Made by a program: the position numbers and the translations under genes. From Polytrichum commune (Eukaryota; Streptophyta; Polytrichopsida; Polytrichales; Polytrichaceae): DNA of 64,000 nucleotides. The notes under the pieces are model-generated. The model was not told the DNA's origin and did no database searches. It was given only the letters and a program-made list of their open reading frames with translations. Below, one piece after another: positions 16,639 to 29,877 of the stretch (positions are counted from its first letter, which is position 1; the number at the start of each line of letters is the position of its first letter). The stretch is taken from contig OX485807.1 of the NCBI GenBank assembly GCA_950295325.1, positions 44,236,440 through 44,300,439 of the forward strand, in the 5' to 3' direction.

Positions 16639-16993
16639 TTTCCATTAAAAGGAGAGTATGTGAAGCTGGGAAATCGACTCATTTAGGTTGAGTCGACCTA
16701 AATGAGGACAATATTTTGTCAATTTAGGTTGAGTCGACCTAAATGAGGACAATATTTTGTCAATTTAGGTTGAGTTGACCTAAATGAGGACATTATGTTG
16801 TCAATTTAGGTTGAGTCGACCTAAATGAGGACAATTATGTTAGTCAATTTAGGTTGAGTCGACCTAAATGAGGACAAGATGTTGTCAATTTAGGTTGAGT
16901 CGACCTAAATGAGGACAAGATGTTGTCAATTTAGGTTGAGTCGACCTAAATGAGTCGATTTCCCAACTTAACATACTCTCATTTTAATGGAAA
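16639..16993. mobile_element. Inverted-repeat element around a palindromic array
   Basis: The left arm TTTCCATTAAAAGGAGAGTA, then gaagctgggaaatcgactc, is answered on the right by gagtcgatttcccaactta and tactctcattttaatggaaa. The arms are about 45-50 bp with few mismatches and enclose the seven 41-bp repeats. A further copy of ACTCTCATTTTAATG at about 17626-17640 could mean that the real element runs to about 17.64 kb. No coding capacity is seen. Confidence 0.7.
16682..16958. repeat. 41-bp tandem repeat, 7 copies, each with a GTCGAC palindrome
   Basis: Starts of tttaggttgag lie at 16682, 16723, 16764, 16805, 16848, 16889 and 16930, so spacing is 41 bp except one of 43. Each unit carries the near-palindrome TTTAGGTTGAGTCGACCTAAA minus its last base, followed by tgaggacaa and a variable AT stretch ending in ttgtcaa. 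Only a few substitutions separate the copies. Confidence 0.93.
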
Positions 16994-19900
16994 TTATGGC
17001 GGAATTTAAGGCCGAAAATCAAATGTTATTTTTTTACTTGTACTCTACAACTTTCTAGTGGTTTTCATTTCATTCTTGGATTAATAGTTTGCTTTATGTC
17101 ACGGGTAGGTCACTCTAAGGCAATTTTGTGCACCACATGCGGCTGGGGGTTTTTTGTTTTGGGGCTATTTACCTTCAAGGGTTGAATTAAAGCCTCCCTA
17201 TAATTACTTAAATTTCAAAAATGGCCCATTTGTTTGCACCCAGCCATTACTTATATTGTCCAAGTCACTGCAATTTTTTGTACTCTATATTCTTTTTAAG
17301 TAATTTTGGACGGACAGAAATCCCAAATATCATCCATCCCCATGAGTCCTAAACCCATTTACATACCACACTAAACATACCTTCTAGGATCCTTATCTTC
17401 AACCCCTATATTAATTTTACAAAAAAATAATGGCCCACGTTTTATGTCCATCTAACTTACTTATAATCGGATTGTCTACATTTAATGGCCCCTTCATTAT
17501 TTGGAATTCCTTTATAATTTTTATTTCAGAGGATTTTAATCCTCTCTATATTATGCCGCACGTCGTTTTTAAAATGCACTAAGTGACCTACCCGTGCTTT
17601 ATGTACTCTCAATTCACTAGAAAACTCTCATTTTAATGAATATTGTGTTTAAGTATGATAAATTAATGTCACTTCCTATTTGGAATTACACAATGCTATA
17701 ATTGTTTACTATCAATCTCATTTTTTACCAACAAAGGTCGCATTGGTTGGTTGAACATTATAGAAAATTCACATCTTTACTTGGTTGAAAATTACATCAA
17801 TAGTTAAAAAATATATAGGATAGTGTAATCCTAAATCGTAAGTGACATTAAATATCATATTCAATTAGTTTGAACTTTGGCCGTCCCAACCCATTGCATT
17901 CATGCATATGGATTGATATCATGGATGAACCCAAATCCATACACCCCATGCAACAATATGCCCATCCCCAAGCATACTTGCAATATGCATGTATGTTCAT
18001 GTTGATAAGCTCCCCATGACTCGCCGCCATGCCTTTTTTTATAATTAAATTGTCCTACTTTGTCCTAATGCCCATGCCATGTCACACCACCTTAATTCCA
18101 TGCATGTCAACGCCCCCTTGTTCCGCCATTATGCCCGCCTTTTGCACTTGGAGCCGCCCCCACCTTTCCACACTTGTTTCCGCTTGGCCACATGTTTTTT
18201 TGGCCACATGTTTGTTTTGGGAAGATGTTTTTGGCATGTGACCCATTATCTCTGAAAAACTACACCATTTATGGTATTTAGTGTCACATGAATAATGTCA
18301 CTCACCCTATTTTGAGGCATCTGCTAGGTTACATTGATGATTAACAACTTCACCATAATTGTCACCTCATGGCACTTGGCATTCAAGTGCGCTTACTAAT
18401 ATCTTGTTACGAGCAGTTCAATAGTGTTATGAGGTGCATGCCTATGTTACACAATAGTCTACAAGTTGACTGAAGTATAAACAAATGACACTTGCCATTA
18501 GTATGCTCAAAACTATCTTCCCCTTGCATACTAAAACACAAGAGTATCATCTAAAGTAAATGGTGCTAATACATTACAACATAAACTTTTAGTATTAGCA
18601 TCTACTATGGTTTAGGTATGATACTTATATATTGTAAATGATGCTAAACTGCCACTTTTATCCCTAAAGGACGAGCTTGATGTTTTTGTTTGGGCAATCA
18701 CTGTTGCACGACCATACCAACACACACTTTTATGTTATGGTATTCCAAAATTGGACATGTGGACGGCTAAAAGTTGGTGTGAACAATTGTAACATGTGGA
18801 CGACTACAAAATTGTTACTTGTATGATCATATCCATCAAAAGAGGTGCCAATTATCATTGAATTGGTTTGAACTGTTTACACGATTTTAAGATCAATAGC
18901 TTTGGCCTTTAAGGTAAGTGCGAAGTGTACATGGCTACTATCATCACTTCAACAATTTTACTTTATTTAGTTTTTGTTGGTTGTTTTTGCTCCCCTCCCC
19001 TCCCCTCTCCTTGCATGGGGATTCCAAAATACCAATATACTTATTTGGTTCCGCATGCAAATGTTATAAGGTATCAAAGTTTTGTTGTCAAATGATCTAA
19101 ACCCATGGCATTAACTCAAAGTCTAAGGTAGTGGATATTCTCTAAATTGTTGGATACAAACCATGAAGGCTTTTAAAGTGTAGGCACAATGTTGGTTATG
19201 GGTTGATAGAGATCTCAACTCTTATCACATCCCGGAGTTCAACTTAGTGTTTGAATAAGGTCACATAATCAATCTCTCTCACATACACATGATATGTATT
19301 AAGGAGATTGCATTTTATGTTGAAGAGAATTGTTCAATCAAGGGAGTTTTTAGGGCCTCATATTTCTAGGGCTGCCAATGTGGATTATGGACCCTACCAA
19401 TACTTATGAATAGCTAAAGCATACCTTGTACTTATTATAAATAATAATTTCATTGCATTTTTATGTAAACTTGAAACAAATTATGGAAACAAAGTTGCAA
19501 ATAATACAAAAATGTGTGAACCTTACTACCATTTGCATCGAGTTATAATCCAATATTGCCACACACATTGCCACATAAAAACATGCATACATTTCACAAA
19601 TGTTTTTATGTGTGGGGAAATGGTTTTATGAATATAATGTGAGTCACTTTGAAATGTCACATACATGATGCACTTACAAATGCAACCAACTTGAAAATGA
19701 AGCAGCACCATAGTTCACACTCGTGGCAACATGGAAGACCTCTTTCTTTGCTTCCTTTGACACGCTAGATATCCGCTTTTTGATAGCTTGTCACCACTTT
19801 TTGAGCATAATATTTCCAACCTCTAGATAACTTGGGTGACTTTATGCATAGGCTCTCAAACTCACGTTTTAAGCAACCTTCAAGAACACTATATTCGTTA

Positions 19901-20415
19901 AATTGAGACTTTCTCTAGTCTCAAATTAATATATGGATCAAACAACATTCCGTGTTCCGAAACTATATTGCGAACAATCTCAAATATATTATATGTTCTA
20001 ATATCCCAAATCTATTATGTGTGGACATAAGCACATATGGTAGAGCACTCAACACCAACTTCATCAACAAAAACACTTTGGGTAGAGCACTCCAAACTAG
20101 TTTCATCCAATAAACATATAAAATGGTTTATATTATTAGCATGGTCAATAAAATATAGACATTGCAACATACAAAGTGCATGCAATAAATGCATTTTTCT
20201 TCAATGGATAATTTAGTCCCAAACTTAATAAAAAAATGAACTTCACATTTGTATTGAAATATAGTAAATGAATATTCATCCAACCCCAAACAATATAGCA
20301 TTCGCAAGTTCTACCCAAACTTTGCCCCAAGTTTGAGGAGCACACATATGAGTAATATATATTCGTCGAATTACATATTACACTATAATCATGCTAACAC
20401 AATCCTACCAACTTC
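16994..20415. other. No gene recognised
   Basis: AT-rich DNA with short reading frames only. A 15-bp inverted pair, CACGGGTAGGTCACT at 17099 and its reverse complement at 17582, suggests another decayed inverted-repeat element of about 0.5 kb. A small pyrimidine tract (ctcccctcccctcccctctcc) lies near 18990-19010. Nothing else is supported. Confidence 0.4.
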
Positions 20416-23400
20416 TCATTTAACGTGGGTTGCTTCTTCTGCGATCCGAGCAAGGTTGTCTTTTGCAAAAGTTATGTACTTTTGAGGGATGGACACCGAT
20501 CCACTATGATTTTTCCGTGGTTTCCATGCTATGAATATGGAATCTGTATCTATCCAAGATGGACCATGCTCAGAATCCACCTTCCACCGAAAGTTAGGGT
20601 TTGTATCCCAGCCTGTATAATGCCGAACAACATCTTCATTCCGTGATGTCGGTCGGTAGTACTCTACTTGTATTTGTCGAAAATGAGGGCTGGAAGTTAC
20701 AAAATTTGGTTTGGACAAAGCTCTTGCCACCCACACTGGCTTTGCATATGTCTCATCTCCAGGACGCAAAATGAGCATATAACCTTCATGACAATCCACT
20801 GCAATGCGGAAAGATGGTGGCGGACGACTACTAGCAGGCCCCACGTAATGGTCGTCCACATCAAACTCCTCTCGAACCTCTCCATTTCCCAAAAGACTAG
20901 CCTCCGAAGCTTGTACATTGACACGTGTTTGTGGCCAAAACCCATGCCTTAAAGTAAGGGGTGTATCTTCATGAAGGTTTGCCAAAGCGCCACGAACACG
21001 TGTCCAATATTGTATCCAACTTCCGTAACGAAGCCAACACGATCCACCAACATCCGCTACCCTCAAACTCTCCCAATATTGTATGAAGCCTGATATGCCT
21101 TTACAAATGTCCTCCAAATTCTTCATGAGTATTGGTTTGCAAGGCTTAGGCTCTCCGTCAGGCAACATCGTCCTTCCTTCCCCATCAACACGCCATACAA
21201 GGAGACCCTCCGGCGGGCTCCAGTCTTGTGATGTGCACAACAACTTGTATTGCATGGCGGGGACACCATCGTCACGCACGTAGAACCGAAATTGTTGTGC
21301 CTTCGTATGCCCGATCAATCGGTGAGCTCCGCTTCGAATATACGGTTCTATAAATGCCTTGAAGTCTGGAACCTCCTCAATCATATGTGGGATGACGGGA
21401 ATGTTCTCCAAATCCATGTACGACTTCATCAACAATGGGATTGTTGGAAAATCCTCCTCACGCAACTTCATGCTCCACCGCCCAAAGGACGCATCAATAT
21501 CATCGTGCGTGTGGCCTACCAATAGAAAGGACACAAAAACCTCCTTGAAAATGCCTTTCGCAACCAACAACGACCAATATGCAAAAACATATCTACTTTT
21601 ATTGTCCTTCGCACAATTGTCCAATTGGACACGCAGAGTTGGGGGCAAATTCTTGGCAATCACATCTTCACTTGGTGGCTCCGGCAATGAGTGCACGCAT
21701 ACATCTCTTCCATCCAAGACCGCTTCATATAGAGGTGTTGATCCCGAGTTTTCAAATAGCAATCTTGATGAATAGGACGGCGGTTTCTCCAAATCACGTA
21801 AAAGCTTTGCAAATGACCCTATCGTGTGGTTTGAATCCCCCGGATACAAATCAAGAGCATAATGAGCATACTTGACATCTCCATGCCCATGTGCAATCAT
21901 TCCTGCAAAGGCAACCCAATGGTTTAATATTCAACTATAACACCAAAAAATTCACATGGTGTACATGTATGGCCCCAAGTACAAACCTAAACGCACAAAT
22001 TTGTGTTTAGGTAATGCAATGCAATTGTTATCAAAATCACCTGTAACCGAAACAGGAAGCTTAAAAAGGCCGTCCGTGGCTTTTATTCGATTTGCAAAAC
22101 ATGGTGAGGCTGTTTTGGCATGGTCCATTTTGTCATGGATGATTGTAAGGACTTCCAAAGGCCTGGAGATGGACAAAGCTCTATTTGTGTAGTAATCATT
22201 ACGGTGTGCCTCTTGCATGTTCACATGCTTGAAATAGTTCATTTGATGTGCGGCATAGGACTCTGTCCCCATCGTGTGTGCATCTCGAAGGCGTTTCAAC
22301 TTCTCGCATTTGGAACAACGGGCAAATTTGTCGCCTCGTCTTTTTGTGATGTATTCGCTAAAGTGAGATTTTTTTATAGCACTCAGTTTCGACAACGAAA
22401 TAGGGTCCAACCCGGCCTTCTCGCCAACTGCGTTTACGTCCAACAATATGTCTTTCCATTTCGTGCCTGTAGGAAGAACCTTCTCCACAACCTTTTCACC
22501 GGTTGCGAGTGTCCGTGTTTTGTGCGGCATTGCATCGGCAAGGGGGACAATGATGGTTGCCAGAGTGGCTGTTGCTTGTCTCGTTGCTTCTCTTGGTTTC
22601 TTTAAGCCCGTGTTCCCATGGTGACGGGCACGGCGGCCTTCATTGGCATACGCGGCTTGTCTATAAAATTCCGCTTTCGACACACCGTGAATGGTGTACC
22701 ATGCCGTACAACACACGTCTATGCTCTCAAGGGTGATGACCTTGCGACCCGCTCCGTTCACATGTATCGCCCTATGGACATCAAGTTTTTTGGTGGATCT
22801 TAGACGGAAATCTCCAAGCCACATTTATTCACGGATGGCCTTCAATTTATCTCTTGGGAACAATTGGCAACAACGATGTACACAACAATCCTTCGTAGCA
22901 ACTTCTCTAATAGACTCCTCACAGAGCAACCTTTGACGTTTACACTTATTTGCAGACGGAGTAGGACGTGTCAATGTTTCGTACTTCCGAAGGCCTTTGC
23001 GTGGCCGAATGTTTGCTTGGAGCTCCTGTTGGATTTGGACGTGTCGTCGCTCATGGTTGCGCAAACTAACCCCCTCAATTGTCACATTCCTCAACGGCCA
23101 CCTTCGCAACGAGAACCTATGAGTTGGATTGACTTCCGAATGTACAAGTGATTCTAATCTAACAACTCCAACGTCCTCGGTGCCAAGGGAGTGTTCATCA
23201 ATGCAATCTTGTGGATGTGTGTTACGACAAATACCCTCCGCCACAGCAACTCCACTGTCATTAACAAGTACCACATCCAAATTCACCCATGAAGCTCGTG
23301 AAAGCCCCGCACATTCCACAATGGGGCAAAAAGGGTCAGATGGCGAAGGACTCCCCAAATGACCTTCATCTGCACTGTCATCAAAACTATCCTCCCCGAC

Positions 23401-23505
23401 AATGTCTAGCTCATCCCCAGACAGAGATTGGGTGCTGCCCATGTCTTCAGAGAAGGAATCCCCTCTTCCACCAACTCCCTCCATTGCGCCTACACAAATG
23501 CACAT
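20416..23505 (-). CDS. DUF7869-type transposase-like protein, one intron, one in-frame stop
   Basis: Exons are 23505-22041 and 21902-20416 around a 138-bp GT-AG intron that joins VSVTG to MIAHGHGD in frame. A single TAA at 22825-22827 interrupts an otherwise open frame (KAIRE, stop, MWLGDF), so the present copy makes a full product only with readthrough. The protein, near 980 residues, starts with an acidic Ser/Asp-rich region, then a Cys-rich segment (CCVHRCC), then ITLESIDVCCTAWYTIHGVS and MPHKTRTL, blocks I associate with this family. The C-terminal region has HDKMDHAKT, LDNCAKDNKSRYVF and VGHTHDDIDASFGR, likely an RNase H-like integrase core with conserved Asp residues. The family is widespread and repetitive in genomes such as those of non-seed plants, so I read it as transposon-borne. 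Element termini were not found. Confidence 0.75.
22825..22827 (-). other. In-frame TAA stop within the DUF7869-type gene
   Basis: The reading frame is open for 226 codons upstream and 261 codons downstream (to the intron donor) with no frame change, so a single substitution created it. CAA to TAA by C-to-T change would be one simple route. Confidence 0.85.
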
Positions 23506-23689
23506 GAAACCTCAACAAACATGGACACAACGTAAGGGTCCAAAAAAATCAAATATTGGAAAATGCAAAACATCACGATAAATGGGGACACTGAGGATCA
23601 AGACATTTGCAACACAAATGCAATGTGAGCTCCCAATACTATGCGCCAGTCCACAAAATGTTCCACAAAATATTTTGGGTGGGAGTTTG

Positions 23690-24830
23690 GGTCGGCCGAC
23701 CTAAACCCTGTGGCACCAGGGATTGAGGGCCATCCACACCTTGCCCGTGGGATAGGGTCGGGTTCCGGTCGACCGACTCAAACCTTGTACAATGATGGGT
23801 TGAGGGCCATTTAGAATTCCATCACGCTGTGGGGAAAATTTTGGGTCGACCGACCCAATCCTTGTCATGGTCAACTACAACCTCCGAAACTGGGGAAGGG
23901 GTTGGGTCGACCGACCCAATCTTTGACGGGGTTAATCCACCCACACTGGATAGGGGTTTGGGTCGGTCGACCCAAACTTTCACAGGCTAAATCCATCCAC
24001 ACTGGGAAGGGGTTTGGGTCGACCGACCCAAACTTTCACAGGGTAAACCCACCACACTCGGAAGGGGTTTGGGTCGGTCGACCCAAACTTTCACAGGGTA
24101 AGTCCACCCACACTGGGAAAGGGTTTAGGTCGGTCGACCCAAACTTTCACAGTGTAAATCCACCCACACTGGGATGAGGTTTGGGTCGCTCGACCCAAAC
24201 ATTACATATGATGGGATAAGGTTCCTACTCTGTCCGTCCAAACCTTCTGAGTACCTTGGGTAAGGGCCATTAACAATTCGTTCACGATGTGCGAAAAAGT
24301 TTGGGTCGACCGACCCAAACCTTCTGAAAGGTTTTACGATAAACGCCCATAGTGGGGTAGGGGTTTGGGTCGACCGACCCAAATCTCAGAAGGGTCAGAC
24401 TAGACCCCCCCCCAACACTAGTGAGGGGGTTTGGGTCGACCGACCCAAACCTCACAAGGGTCAGACTAGACCCCCCCCCCAAACACTAGTGAAGGGGTTT
24501 GGGTCGACCGACCCAAACCTCACAAGGGTCAGACTAGACCCCCCCCCCCCAACACTAGTGAAGGGGTTTGGGTCGATCGACCCAAACCTCACAAGGGTCA
24601 GGCTAGACCCCCCCCCAACACTAGTGAAGGGGTTTGGGTCGACCGACCCAAACCTCACAAGGGTGAGACTAGAACCCGCCCACACTAGTGGAGGGGTTTG
24701 GGTCGATCGACCCAAACCTCAGAATGGTCAGACTAGAACCCGCCCACACTAGTGGAGGGGTTTGGGTCGACCGACCCAAACCTCACAAGGGTCAAACTGA
24801 AACCCGCCAACACTAGTGTCGACCGACGTA
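23690..24830. repeat. Array of about 17 GGGTCGACCGACCC palindromes
   Basis: The core TTTGGGTCGACCGACCCAAA, with variants such as GGGTCGGTCGACCC and GGGTCGATCGACCC, recurs from about 23690 to 24780. Spacing is about 55-56 bp in the part near 23890-24200 (linker tttcacagg-taaatccacccacactgg) and 65-69 bp in the part 24300-24780 (linker cctcacaagggtcagactaga, a run of 8-10 C, acactagtgaag). Centres vary between symmetric and slightly offset forms while the arms stay intact. The array is directly upstream of the DUF7869-type gene start. Long reading frames through it on both strands only reflect the repeat period. Confidence 0.95.
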
Positions 24831-24862
24831 TAATACAGCGTATAATGCGGCGTATAATGCAG
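24823..24862. repeat. 12-bp repeat cgtataatgcag, 3 copies
   Basis: Three head-to-tail copies of cgtataatrcrg immediately follow the palindrome array. Confidence 0.8.
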
Positions 24863-25463
24863 CGGATATTGAGAGGTGTGTGGAATTTCATCTCATTGCA
24901 AAGTTCATTGCGGACTTGCATGCTGTGAATAGGTCCTCATGAACAACAGCGTGAACGAACCTCGAAGTACAGCTCCGACTAAGAGTTCTCTCTACGAATT
25001 CAGGAGTGGGAGAAGAGCAAAAAAGAACCAACTTTTGGGGGGTGCGCCCCTTTATACTATCCACCTCCACTTGCCCGACTTCCTCATTGGATGCCTTTCC
25101 CGCCTTCTTATTTCAAACCTCCTGACAGAATTCCCCGTTTTCTGTTTATTGTAGAAAATGCGCATCTTTCAATGCCCCTCTCATACCCCAGCCGTCATAT
25201 GTCTTAGTCTATGATATTTAATCTTTTTTTGGTTTTGTGTGTATATGACATACGACATTGGGAGGAAGGGTGGCGGCCACATTAATTTTTTCAAGTGTCA
25301 CAACGGTATATTTTAACCAATATGTATACCCAACCACAACTCCATTCAATGCTTTCAAGTGCAAACCTATTTAGGTGGGGTTGGGGCCATTTGGAGGTTG
25401 CAATTATGAGAGAGTTTCCAAGGCTTGAGGCCATTGTCATGATGAATAAAATTATTTATTTGT

Positions 25464-25488
25464 CTCCCCTAAACCCTAAACCCTAGAA
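25464..25488. repeat. Short telomere-like CCCTAAA run
   Basis: Roughly three units of the plant telomere repeat (ccctaaaccctaaaccctag). Such interstitial runs are common in plant promoters and repeats; this one is too short to mark a former chromosome end. Confidence 0.7.
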
Positions 25489-25644
25489 CATTGCGGCTCT
25501 GTTATCTCGCATGGAAGTGTGGCAATGATAAACGTATGTGGACGTTGTTAAGGGGATACTAACTAGCAATGTCGCTTTTTGGTTCAATCTTTTAATGTTA
25601 TTTCAATCCATCCTCAAGTTCACTTCAAGTTTACTAATGTGTGT

Positions 25645-26480
25645 GACCAAAACATCCAAAGTTGGACCCTAAACCCTTATAACATCCACAACATGAAATA
25701 CGTATTGACAAAATACAAAACCAATTAGTATATCATGTTTAAACGTCCCAAATAACATATTAACATGATCAAGATTGTATTTACTATAACCTTCCTATTA
25801 GACTCTTCTTCATATTATGCAAACAATATCTGTTATATCTTTCTCCATTATCCAATACATGTGGAGGGAACAATGAATAAGAACATGATTGCGTGAATGG
25901 CTTCATTTGATGTTGTGCTTCTCTTATTTACTTTTGCATCACATTCCATATATTAAATACATCATGAACCATGGTTTATTGGCGACTATGTGATTTCCTA
26001 AAGTGAGCAAAACATCCAAAGTTGAACCCCTTACCCCTAATAACATCCACAACATTTCATGTTATTTGAATAAACACAAGACCATTCACTATATCACGTT
26101 TAAACGTCCGTAATAACAAATAAACATAATCAAGATCGTCTTTTCTATTACCTTCCAGTAAAAACCTATTCTCACCAGTAAGTCAATGTTATATGTTAAT
26201 ATTGGATAGATTAATATGTTATAAACCTAACTCCTAAACCCTAAATACAAAAATTCGTAGTTGTTCACTGCTACCTCCACATACAAACAACATGAACTTT
26301 ATCCTGCGCCATTATGTAATATACGTGGAGGGAACATTCAATAACAACATGATTGCGTCAAAGGGCTTCATTTGATGTTGTGGTTCTCCGATTTACTTTT
26401 ATATCACATTCGAAGTACATATATCACGATCCATGGTTTATTGGCGACTATGTGATTCATTCAAGTGAGTATGTAAGGGA
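25645..26480. repeat. Diverged direct duplication, two copies
   Basis: A block starting aaaacatccaaagttg at about 25650 recurs at about 26009. It includes ataacatccacaacat, tatcatgtttaaacgtcc and a later gtggagggaaca ... ttggcgactatgtgatt stretch. Later landmarks are spaced up to about 460 bp because of insertions. No coding sense is visible. Confidence 0.75.
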
Positions 26481-26905
26481 TTTACTAAAAACTTGAGCAT
26501 GTTAGCATTTCGACATAAGGATCATGCAATTCCAAACCCTGAGAAAATGCTCTTGGGGAAGGTATACATTTAGCAAACACATTCAAATATCCTAAATTTC
26601 CGAATTTCATGTTGGGGGACGGGGGTTATATTTTTTATTCATTGCATATTGTGTGAGTTCTTGGCATCATTGGTAAAGTCTAAATGTCAACGATTACATC
26701 GTTAAATGTCACGCAATTGTATTATTTTTCTAACTTGCTCAAACAAAAGAGAAACCAATGATTTCAACTTGTTTGGGAAATTTAGGTTATGGTGTCATGT
26801 GAGTAGGGGTTAAGTCTTAGTTTTAGCATAACGTTGCGTTGTAAAAATGCATTAGTTGTATAAATGGTTTCATTTTGTAGAATACCGCATTTGATGTGCA
26901 CCTTA

Positions 26906-27436
26906 TGGGGCATTCCCACTTGACATTAGTTAGAAGTAGTATTAGTCTAAATGCGGTTTTAGTTATCTAGGTTTCACACATATGGCTCTTTTTAGTGCCG
27001 AGCCTAGGTGGCAAATGATGTGGCATGGCTTAAAAGTGGAGGTTTTAAGCCTCAACCACCGACGCTCCCATCGGTACCTAAACATTAGGCAAGAATATAG
27101 GAATTTTAAAAGTGTCGCCTCCCACCCTTGTGATTGGTTGCTTTTTAGTCTTAGCTATGAGGGCACGAGGAGCTTCATTAACAAAAACCGATGGTAAGAT
27201 AGGTGAGTAGTAAGGCATTTGGGGATGGGACAAAAACTACCCAACATTCATTGCTTGGTAGATAAAACCATGAACATGTGTGAAAGCTACTTAACTAAAA
27301 CCTACTTGAAAATCTCCGGAGCAAGTTCTTGTAGGTGCATTGGGATAGTTGGATGCCTCCGCTATAACCGAGGGAGCTTTACCCGGTCTTTATAAAATAG
27401 TGAGGGTCTTAACTAAAGTCAAGTGGGAATGCCCCA
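26906..27436. mobile_element. 531-bp MITE with TTA target duplication (PIF/Harbinger-like)
   Basis: Left end TGGGGCATTCCCACTTGAC and right end GTCAAGTGGGAATGCCCCA are perfect inverses. The arms continue with one or two mismatches (attagtta / taactaaa). TTA lies directly outside both ends (26903-26905 and 27437-27439), the 3-bp duplication expected of PIF/Harbinger elements. A short reading frame inside has no recognisable motif. Confidence 0.85.
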
Positions 27437-28010
27437 TTAGGGTACTCCAAAGTGTCTTGAAAATACTAATGCCCGCTAAGGGTTTACAGTTTGGCTTTAG
27501 GATTTAGGGTTCCCCGTAATCCTAATTCCGTTGGTGCCCTAATCCCGTTGGCACCCTATTCGTGCGGTTGGGGGCCAATTCCCGAGGCATACAAAACCCC
27601 AGCCGTCACAACTTTTCGCTCTTTCTCTCTCTCTCCGCGCCAAGCATTCGCTCCGCGCCTCTTGTGGAAGCGCCGCCTCTCCTGAAGCGCCGCTTTCACG
27701 AAGCGCCGTGGCGATTCAGGGTGGCGATTTTCTTCTCTTCCCTCCCTTCTTGTTGCTTTGGCGCCTACTGATTCTTCTCCTTCCCTCCCTTCTCTTGCTG
27801 TAGAAGTTAGGAAGTGTTTGCAATAGAACAGAAACCTAAGGAGAGAGTTTTAGAGTGCGTGAGAGTTAGTAGAGTGATTGTTGTAGAGTGAAGTAAGTAG
27901 AAGATTGTTGAAGGGTTTTCCAACATTCTAAGCTTGCGGGTTTTGGAGGCTGTATTGTAGTTGGAGAGTTTGTGAGATTTAGGAGTTCTATAAGATAATC
28001 AGGAGGTGTT
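27437..28010. other. GC-richer, pyrimidine-rich leader-like segment
   Basis: Contains ctctttctctctctctccgcgcc and repeated gcgccg blocks, then a purine-rich stretch leading into the 99-bp repeats. It resembles a 5' UTR or the R-U5 part of a retroelement, but no gene follows within a reasonable distance. Confidence 0.3.
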
Positions 28011-28410
28011 TGAGAGATACAAAAGTCATTTGAGAGAGTCAGTCATTGTTTTGAGAGATTCACTTGTTCTTAGGGATTCAGAGGTTGTTTGAAACACTCA
28101 ATTGTTGTTTGAGAGATACAAAAGTCATTTGAGAGAGTCAGTCATTGTTTTGAGAGATTCACTTGTTCTTAGGGATTCAAAGGTTGTTTGAAACACTCAA
28201 TTGTTGTTTGAGAGATACAAAAGTCATTTGAGAGAGTCAGTCATTGTTTTGAGAGATTCACTTGTTCTTAGGGATTCAGAGGTTGTTTGAAACACTCAAT
28301 TGTTGTTTGAGAGATACAAAAGTCATTTGAGAGAGTCAGTCATTGTTTTGAGAGATTCACTTGTTCTTAGGGATTCAGAGGTTGTTTGAAGTATTGAATT
28401 GTTGTTTGAG
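28011..28410. repeat. 99-bp tandem repeat, 4 copies
   Basis: Starts of tgagagatac lie at 28011, 28110, 28209 and 28308, exactly 99 bp apart. The units are nearly identical; the fourth diverges at its 3' end (gaagtattgaattg). Each unit contains several gttTGAGAGA-type sub-motifs, so the 99-bp repeat itself grew from a shorter motif. 99 is a multiple of three, but no long open frame uses it. Confidence 0.95.
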
Positions 28411-28675
28411 AGATTCAAAAGAGATCTAGGAGTTGTATGAGAGATTGTGGATTTGTGTGAGAGGTTACATTCAACTGTTTCTGTGTTATTGGAAGAAGAA
28501 CACCTGTTCTAAAGCAACTGTTTACAACAACTGCTACATACAACAAAGGTATTTTCTTTTATTATATGCAATAAGTGTTTGTCAATTGAAGGTATTGTAG
28601 CATACACAACGCATAAGCATTGTATATGCTACGTGCCAACTTTTAAAAATTACATTAAAATAGGAAAGTTTGGGG

Positions 28676-28795
28676 AGACGACCCAAACACGGCCACAGGT
28701 TTGGGTCGGTCGACCCAAACACAGCCTCTTGTTTGGGTCGACCGACCCAAACACAAAACAAAGCATCATGTTTGGGCCGAACGACCCAAACAACG
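28676..28795. repeat. Second cluster of GGGTCGACCGACCC palindromes
   Basis: Four occurrences of the same core as the 23.7-24.8 kb array lie here, two of them full palindromes and two half or mutated (gacgacccaaac; tttgggccgaacgacccaaac). Linkers are short and unlike those of the main array. Confidence 0.9.
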
Positions 28796-28799
28796 TCTT

Positions 28800-29877
28800 C
28801 TAATTATAAACTCATAAAGAAATCCATGATTTTTGCATCAATATAAAATTCATATCAAAAAATAGGTAGAAAATCAAAATAAAATTACAATGTAAAAAAG
28901 AAAATAACAAATACGAGACTTCAATGTTTTTGAATGTAAAATCTAATTCAAAATTCACATCCGCTTGCATGGCAATGCATATGTTGCATCTGATGCGCTC
29001 TGATCTGCCAAGGCGATATAACCACTAAGCATAGGTTCTTTGTTGGCTCTGTCTGTAGGACAGAGACTATGCATCAACTTCCTTGTTTCAAGAGCAAATT
29101 TCCTAACCACTTTGCGTTCACACTTGGACGTTACTTGTTCTTGTTATTTTTGGTCCACTTTATTTAATGTGGTCTCTCTCTCTCTCTCTCTCTCTCTAAT
29201 TGCTCCCTAAAATGCATTGAAAGAGGTCTAGTTAATTATAGTTATTTCGGTAGTTCTTGATTATTCATTTACAAAAATTTGAGTGATAAATGAGTAGCTT
29301 CAATCCTTGACCCACATTTGAGAAGAAGGTGCTCAAAATCCAAGAAAGGTTTGGTATAGTGAATAACCATGGATTGGCATGAGCAAAGTGGACAACCACA
29401 ATTATAGTCTTTCATAGTAAAGAACAGAGCCTCACGGTTCTACTGTTTTCTTGTTTTCCCAGTGTGCATCGCGAAACGACCACCAGTGCGACTACCAACC
29501 TCCTCTGCACAACGACACAATTCCAGTCTTCCCTACAAGCCATACAATTTCTTGCGCTAGCAGCTTCATGTGCACCCAAGCATTCACAATTTGCACAAAT
29601 GTTCTATACTTTGGGTTTGGTGTACACGGTTGGAGTGTCGCTTCATGACTACTCTATTCTACATTCATGTAGGGATCAGGTGCCCAATGCATTATGTGGA
29701 GTCAACCTCTCCAACAGACACAAAACCTGCAATGAATTGTAGCTTCCAATGCAGAGAGGTAGCTAGTTCACAACGATTGCCAAACCGTGCTTCTGTGCAT
29801 GTCTGCAATTGGCATGCATATATTTTGGAAAATTCCTCCAACTGCCTATTTTCAACTACAACGTTCGTGCTTGGTGA
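28800..29877. other. No gene recognised; CT microsatellite
   Basis: AT-rich sequence with a (CT)n run at about 29172-29197. Short plus-strand frames at 29451-29980 have no recognisable motif. Confidence 0.4.

Follow-up and report, generated by a model that had tools for sequence, protein, structure and literature searches.

Lineage-specific palindromic codes in DUF7869 transposons of the moss Polytrichum commune and a candidate protein that may read them

A palindrome with two free central bases

In the moss Polytrichum commune, a stretch of 64,000 nucleotides (the window; contig OX485807.1 of assembly GCA_950295325.1, positions 44,236,440 to 44,300,439) contains a dense series of palindromes beside a gene of the DUF7869 type. 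This raises the question of what the palindromes are for and, if they are binding sites, which protein would read them. A preliminary description had counted about 17 palindromes centred on GTCGAC directly upstream of the gene and had proposed that they look selected, either as subterminal binding sites of a transposase or as a promoter.

Seventeen cores (at most 3 mismatches at the 18 arm positions; 12 exact) were found by motif scan, forming an unstranded array at window positions 23686-24780, with core starts from 23686 to 24761. The periods were as described, since spacings of 77, 77 and 61 bp are followed by 55-56 bp, a gap of 120 bp and finally 64-69 bp. The array begins approx. 175 bp upstream of the first open reading frame of the DUF7869 gene (22825-23511, minus strand), so the reported placement was recovered as well. 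The proposed core, however, had to be replaced: the GTCGAC-centred form TGGGTCGACCCA occurs 18 times in the genome versus 11 times for its reversed control, whereas TTTGGGTCG-NN-CGACCCAAA occurs in 9731 exact copies in 408 Mb versus none for the reversed control. This motif, referred to as the fam1 code, has 20 letters, i.e., the half-sites TTTGGGTCG and CGACCCAAA and two free centre bases, and its symmetry centre is the unconstrained dinucleotide (CG-NN-CG). Allowing centres of 0-8 bp gave 9735 genome sites, 4 more than with the 2-bp centre. With up to 3 mismatches allowed, the window contains 20 matches to a 16-bp form of the motif lacking NN, 11 of them inside the array (shuffles predict 0.43). 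About 406 of the 408 Mb of the genome are contained in seven large contigs of 42-78 Mb, and TTTAGGG-type repeats are present.

Substitution in cores and linkers was compared over 10 arrays, from which cores with more than 5 arm mismatches were dropped; spacings of 183 (F2) and 81 (L019) suggest about two dropped cores among 81 intervals. The pairwise mismatch was 3.3% in the arms (246/7550), 24.3% in the linkers (3663/15066) and 45.6% at the centre bases (371/814) of the same arrays, in agreement with the impression that the palindromes look selected. Within the window array, arm and linker differences amount to 12/180 and 55/356 in the first half and to 0/378 and 206/938 in the second. A plain satellite is ruled out by the rates of arms, linkers and centre together with the fixed spacing. 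Neutral palindromic minisatellites, in which hairpins drive tandem duplication without any function, would account for the many tandem sites and their drifting periods. Nevertheless, we regard such an origin as extremely improbable, as the arms drift about seven times less than the linkers, the 2-bp centre is present in 9731 of 9735 sites, and sites outside arrays occupy corresponding places even where lineages differ in code (see below).

The transposon carrying the array

Based on blastn alignments to two fuller copies, A and B, the array is part of a truncated copy of an approximately 17 kb long DUF7869 DNA transposon, fam1, covering window positions 19885..28858 (unstranded). The window copy matches A at 97.4% over 19885-22697, B at 95.8% over 19885-23707, and the fuller copies at 84.5-86.0% over 24914-26909; it is cut off near 28858 and lacks the portion with the ParB-like, methylase-like and phosphatase genes. 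Its left terminal inverted repeat (TIR), AACACTATATTCGTTAAATTGAGACTTT, was located by terminal alignment at 19885..19912 on the plus strand. Genome-wide, the TIR pattern was matched 337 times in forward and 351 times in reverse orientation (control 0), and many of 100 places among the matches listed pair approx. 17 kb apart. Copy A (C1:1174918-1193533) is 18.6 kb long including an internal insertion, copy B (C1:2112817-2129768) 17.0 kb, and a copy of the sister family fam2 17.3 kb; their 4-bp target duplications are CCTT, TTAT and TTGT, respectively. A 1.76-kb stretch (approx. C1:1177732-1179489) interrupts the DUF7869 gene of copy A and is absent from B and from the window copy.

In the window, the DUF7869 gene consists of three frames on the minus strand. 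The domain-bearing ORF at 20416..21930 (504 aa) matches PF25273 with an E-value of 1.3e-41. The middle ORF (21952..22824, 290 aa) and the first ORF (22825..23511, 228 aa) are open frames, the former 73% identical to fam2 and 43% to fam3, the latter 53% and 37%. For PF25273, 150 of 150 scored genome matches lie above the cut-off, of 1491 candidates; no paper on DUF7869 was found in the open literature. In fuller copies, the DUF7869 gene occupies one strand and a divergent chain of ORFs the other. The chain comprises a ParB-like ORF with a GQH motif, ORFs with a methylase-like GG motif, an ORF of 498-499 aa and a gene for a NIF-type (CTD-phosphatase-like) phosphatase, which was recognized in fam1 and fam2 (PF03031, E 1.3e-13; L002 2835-3647 and L015 4401-5180).

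The proposed link between array and DUF7869 transposon held. Three TIR-bounded elements make up 53.7 kb of C1:1-2.16 Mb, yet contain 81 of the 100 fam1 sites among the matches listed for that interval, with 19 elsewhere; arrays lying mostly far from DUF7869 genes, which would have spoken against the link, were not what was found in this sample. Of the remaining 19, 17 are in another element, X (L007-L009), and 2 at C1:438 kb. Element X carries the fam1 code mostly as 32-bp units. No fam1 proteins were detected by tblastn in the L007-L009 stretches examined, and a similarity search for its classification returned weak matches only. It also bears the palindrome AGACCCTGTGCG-TTAA-CGCACAGGGTCT (L007 6615-6642, L008 8068-8095), possibly a further code. 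A 454-bp stretch at one element X locus (L009 130-583) resembles window 26902-27349 at 96% in reverse orientation and is perhaps a nested repeat.

A second, unstranded palindrome group was found by motif scan at window 28668..28790. It comprises 4 sites, of which 2 are exact and the other two deviate at 1 and at 5 positions. The surrounding segment, 28592-28856, aligns to copy A, and the sites correspond to those that fuller copies carry upstream of their ParB-like gene. Between the two groups lies a 99-bp tandem repeat of four copies (28007-28421) which contains no palindrome code. Another palindrome array, at 16681-16954, has a 41-bp period and the sequence ATTTAGGTTGAGTCGACCTAAAT; in contrast to the seven codes described below, it lacks a 2-bp centre. 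As its flanks are near-perfect inverted repeats, this array sits in a small MITE-like inverted-repeat element. In fam1 arrays, e.g., at window 23957-24088, the centre AC is exchanged for its reverse complement GT while the linkers keep register, as if cores had been inverted or converted in place.

The suggestion of subterminal transposase sites was set aside. The window array lies approx. 3.8 kb from the element end, other sites are likewise internal, upstream of or between the ORFs of the second gene or in one open frame, and the TIRs of fam1 and fam2 are nearly the same while their palindromes differ. A promoter or enhancer role is possible.

Seven codes at matching positions in sister lineages

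The fam2 elements carry a palindrome of their own, GTTTACGGACG-NN-CGTCCGTAAAC (847 genome copies, control 0), and a further family, fam3, carries CCCACGGGTG-NN-CACCCGTGGG (644 copies, control 0; also 644 with any centre). The fam3 ParB-like protein was used as a query, and from the resulting 91 rows 15 loci were chosen by protein identity alone. A de novo search found an own repeated palindrome in 13 of the 15, compared to 0 in 75 shuffled sequences. It recovered the fam3 code and, in addition, the half-sites CCCACGGGCG (177 genome copies), GTTCCTCTCG (284 copies for its 9-bp form), CTTCCACTCG and CTTTCACTCG. In total, seven codes (fam1, fam2, fam3, 3c, d, 31 and 32) were obtained, each with a pair of half-sites flanking 2 bp. 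Directly before this centre, each of the seven half-sites reads CG or TG, which suggests one reader family.

Exact sites of the seven codes are confined to their own lineage, except for the fam1 code in element X and one 31-code site in L033 of the d-group; at 2 mismatches, neighbouring codes overlap. L022 and L028, whose ParB-like frames have stops, showed no repeated palindrome in the stretches examined; exact d-code sites do occur near the L028 gene, at distances of approx. 5 and 16 kb and beyond the stretch searched for palindromes. L020 and L027, with one stop each in this frame, keep theirs.

It is improbable that the elements exploit host transcription factors, with a separate dimeric factor of the host recognizing each code. 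Sites do concentrate upstream of and between ORFs, and the fam1 code is also used by element X, as could be expected of host sites. On the other hand, the codes are nearly private to their lineages and change stepwise on both sides between relatives, and among the 100 fam1 sites listed, the fam1 elements hold 81 and element X 17.

The GQH codon of the ParB-like ORF served as the reference point for the positions of own-code sites (at most 3 arm mismatches) in 15 anchored loci, omitting L020, which has no GQH anchor, as well as L022 and L028; seven d-group loci in this count are close relatives and were counted as one code. An upstream group at 1.1-2.4 kb is present in 15/15 loci and 7/7 codes, a group 0.3-0.6 kb downstream, around the 3′ end of the ParB-like ORF, also in 15/15 loci and 7/7 codes, and a third group at 1.8-2.4 kb in 13/15 loci and 6/7 codes. 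The downstream groups at ORF ends are probably intronic. The DUF7869 gene was located in the lineages fam1, fam2, fam3, d and 32, and in all five own-code sites stand close upstream of it. The code changes while the places stay. New insertions would hardly produce such a pattern; sites evolving in place, following a reader, agree with it. In general, the motifs are lineage-specific, often tandem and concentrated in noncoding regions. They are not confined to noncoding DNA, as two sites in copy A (L002 2019-2107) are in frame within ORF 903-2399 (498 aa) and encode the peptides FGSTDPN and FGSGDPN, both of which also occur in the 499-aa frame of copy B.

Changes between related codes affect both arms. 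At the base distinguishing code 3 from 3c, four fam3-type loci show T opposite A in 53 of their 54 sites and G with A in the remaining one. Two 3c loci contribute 31 sites, 28 of them with C opposite G and three in which the C is confined to the left arm. For codes d, 31 and 32, eleven loci contribute 95 sites, and in 88 of these the left and right arms pair at both positions that tell the codes apart. Among the loci counted, copies F3 and L013 are 99% alike. Since tandem copies have a common origin, not every change is an independent event; sites outside arrays have changed as well. Palindromes acting as RNA hairpins or as small-RNA sources would equally be preserved by two-sided changes, and any inverted repeat can fold. 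We nevertheless consider an RNA function very unlikely, since a fixed 2-nt loop of free sequence is odd for RNA but natural for a protein dimer, and the main window array lies upstream of an open frame.

A candidate reader and its relation to known systems

The explanation that we favour, and hold to be fairly probable, is that the palindromes are sites of a dimeric, self-recognizing protein of the element, probably the ParB-like product, which perhaps opposes silencing. The transposon would encode a homodimeric DNA-binding protein, each subunit of which would read a half-site of 9-11 bp ending in CG or TG, with exactly 2 unread bp in between. Each lineage examined has its own half-site, which is repeated in front of its genes and, in probable introns, between the ORFs of the second gene, in many cases as tandem copies. 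The most likely reader would be the product of the ParB-like/methylase-like gene that accompanies the sites. It would bind the copies of its own family but not those of other families, and may in this way switch on or protect the former; by analogy with VANDAL/VANC, it could release these copies from silencing or activate them while other elements stay dormant.

The comparison of fam1 and fam2 bears on the identity of the reader. Their TIRs share 26 of 28 bases (left ends) and the ORFs of the DUF7869 gene are 66%, 73% and, for the first, 53% identical. The ParB-like ORFs are 34% identical (25% in the N-terminal part), and the methylase-like ORFs 36-37%. In the codes, 3 of 9 centre-proximal half-site positions differ, with no cross-match at two mismatches. 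As TIR and DUF7869 are kept while ParB-like protein and code have diverged, the ParB-like product is favoured over DUF7869 with moderate confidence. Across the seven codes, using one rounded identity per pair, the identities of ParB-like proteins and half-sites are correlated (r 0.77; 8 of 5040 permutations as high in a Mantel test), which is partly expected because whole elements share descent.

That the palindromes are bound, as internal sites of transposition or autoregulation, by the presumed transposase DUF7869 or by the N-terminal part of this protein is unlikely in our judgement. Such binding would agree with the own-code sites close upstream of its gene in fam1, fam2, fam3, d and 32, and the first ORF does diverge faster between fam1 and fam2 than the other two. 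However, the codes differ in spite of near-identical TIRs and main ORFs 66-73% identical, and the internal sites also surround the ParB-like gene. Further, at L012, the locus of the best-scoring DUF7869 match, neither any of the seven codes nor a repeated palindrome was found on the one side examined.

For the ParB-like product preferred here, the GQH motif is invariant in 15 aligned members. The ParB assignment is suggested by weak profile matches, namely to phrog_1033 in 2 of 15 members (E 0.016 and 0.055). Searches of Pfam, NCBIfam and solved structures with single proteins and profiles gave nothing relevant; the sole PDB match below 0.001, a cytochrome c555 trimer, was rejected because it reflected three weak repeats. 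Among phages no match was found, and of 50 pattern matches in viral contigs none was confirmed as a relative. The methylase-like ORFs were so assigned by eye, tentatively, from their conserved GG motif; a Pfam search with 11 members gave no relevant match and one weak unrelated one, and no DPPY-type catalytic motif was seen. In the open literature, screened by titles and the beginnings of abstracts for ParB with transposons and for palindromic family-specific sites, nothing describing these codes was found.

The closest worked case is that of VANDAL transposons and their VANC proteins in Arabidopsis. Short family-specific motifs, often in tandem, occupy noncoding regions there, motif and protein diverge together, and VANC binding and loss of methylation were measured (PMC5735166, PMC10398659). 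The moss elements likewise have a family-specific, often tandem noncoding motif, the exceptions being the in-frame sites and element X. The presence of the fam1 code in element X has a parallel in AT9TSD1, an unrelated element which can carry the VANC6 motif (PMC5735166). There are differences: the VANC motifs given there are short (YAGTATTAY; AGTTGTCC/AGTTGTAC; PMC5735166, PMC10398659) and the term “palindrom” is absent from PMC5735166, whereas the moss motif has two half-sites of 9-11 bp around a fixed 2-bp centre. VANDAL elements combine a Mutator-type transposase with a VANC homologue, whereas the transposase-like gene here matches DUF7869. While VANC effects were measured, the moss codes are known from sequence and are likened to VANC motifs by function.

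A study on Ectocarpus describes Sola1-1_Ec32, a giant transposon with accessory genes for a ParB-like protein and a DNA methyltransferase, and an accessory gene that possibly binds and modifies its own element (PMC12477816). Like the moss element, it is a giant DNA transposon in which transposase and accessory gene lie on opposite strands. The passages on it name no binding sites, and “palindrom” does not occur in that paper (PMC12477816). The ParB and methylase signals found here are too weak to claim membership.

Bacterial ParB recognizes the palindromic site parS, and VirB is a ParB-related anti-silencer. VirB is reported to offset silencing by H-NS (PMC10653881). The moss elements also combine a palindromic site with a ParB-like protein, but the bacterial system belongs to another domain of life, and any homology of the element protein to bacterial ParB is putative.

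In CACTA (En/Spm) elements, the TIR begins with CACTA, the target duplication is 3 bp and TNPA goes with subterminal motif repeats. What the two have in common is many short sites within an element for a protein which that element encodes, such a protein being putative here. Membership in CACTA was rejected, as the TIR in the moss starts with AACACTATA, the duplications are 4 bp long in 3/3 copies, and the sites are internal.

The codes bear on how transposons tell their own copies apart and on how this specificity can change without loss of function. We tentatively put forward, as a speculative possibility, a eukaryotic counterpart of parS: private palindromes in front of and inside the genes would be the nucleation points from which ParB-like proteins of giant transposons spread over their own copies and mark them epigenetically or shield them. 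As sister families compete in one genome, these proteins would diversify into a set of mutually exclusive codes for “self”. The codes are candidate binding sites for ParB-like accessory genes of the kind reported in algal giant transposons. A single moss genome offers seven readable codes at matching positions, differing by one-base steps on both sides, with a candidate reader gene adjacent, so that co-evolution of code and reader becomes directly testable. Standing at the same places in sister families, the codes look like a name-tag read by a protein that each family encodes.
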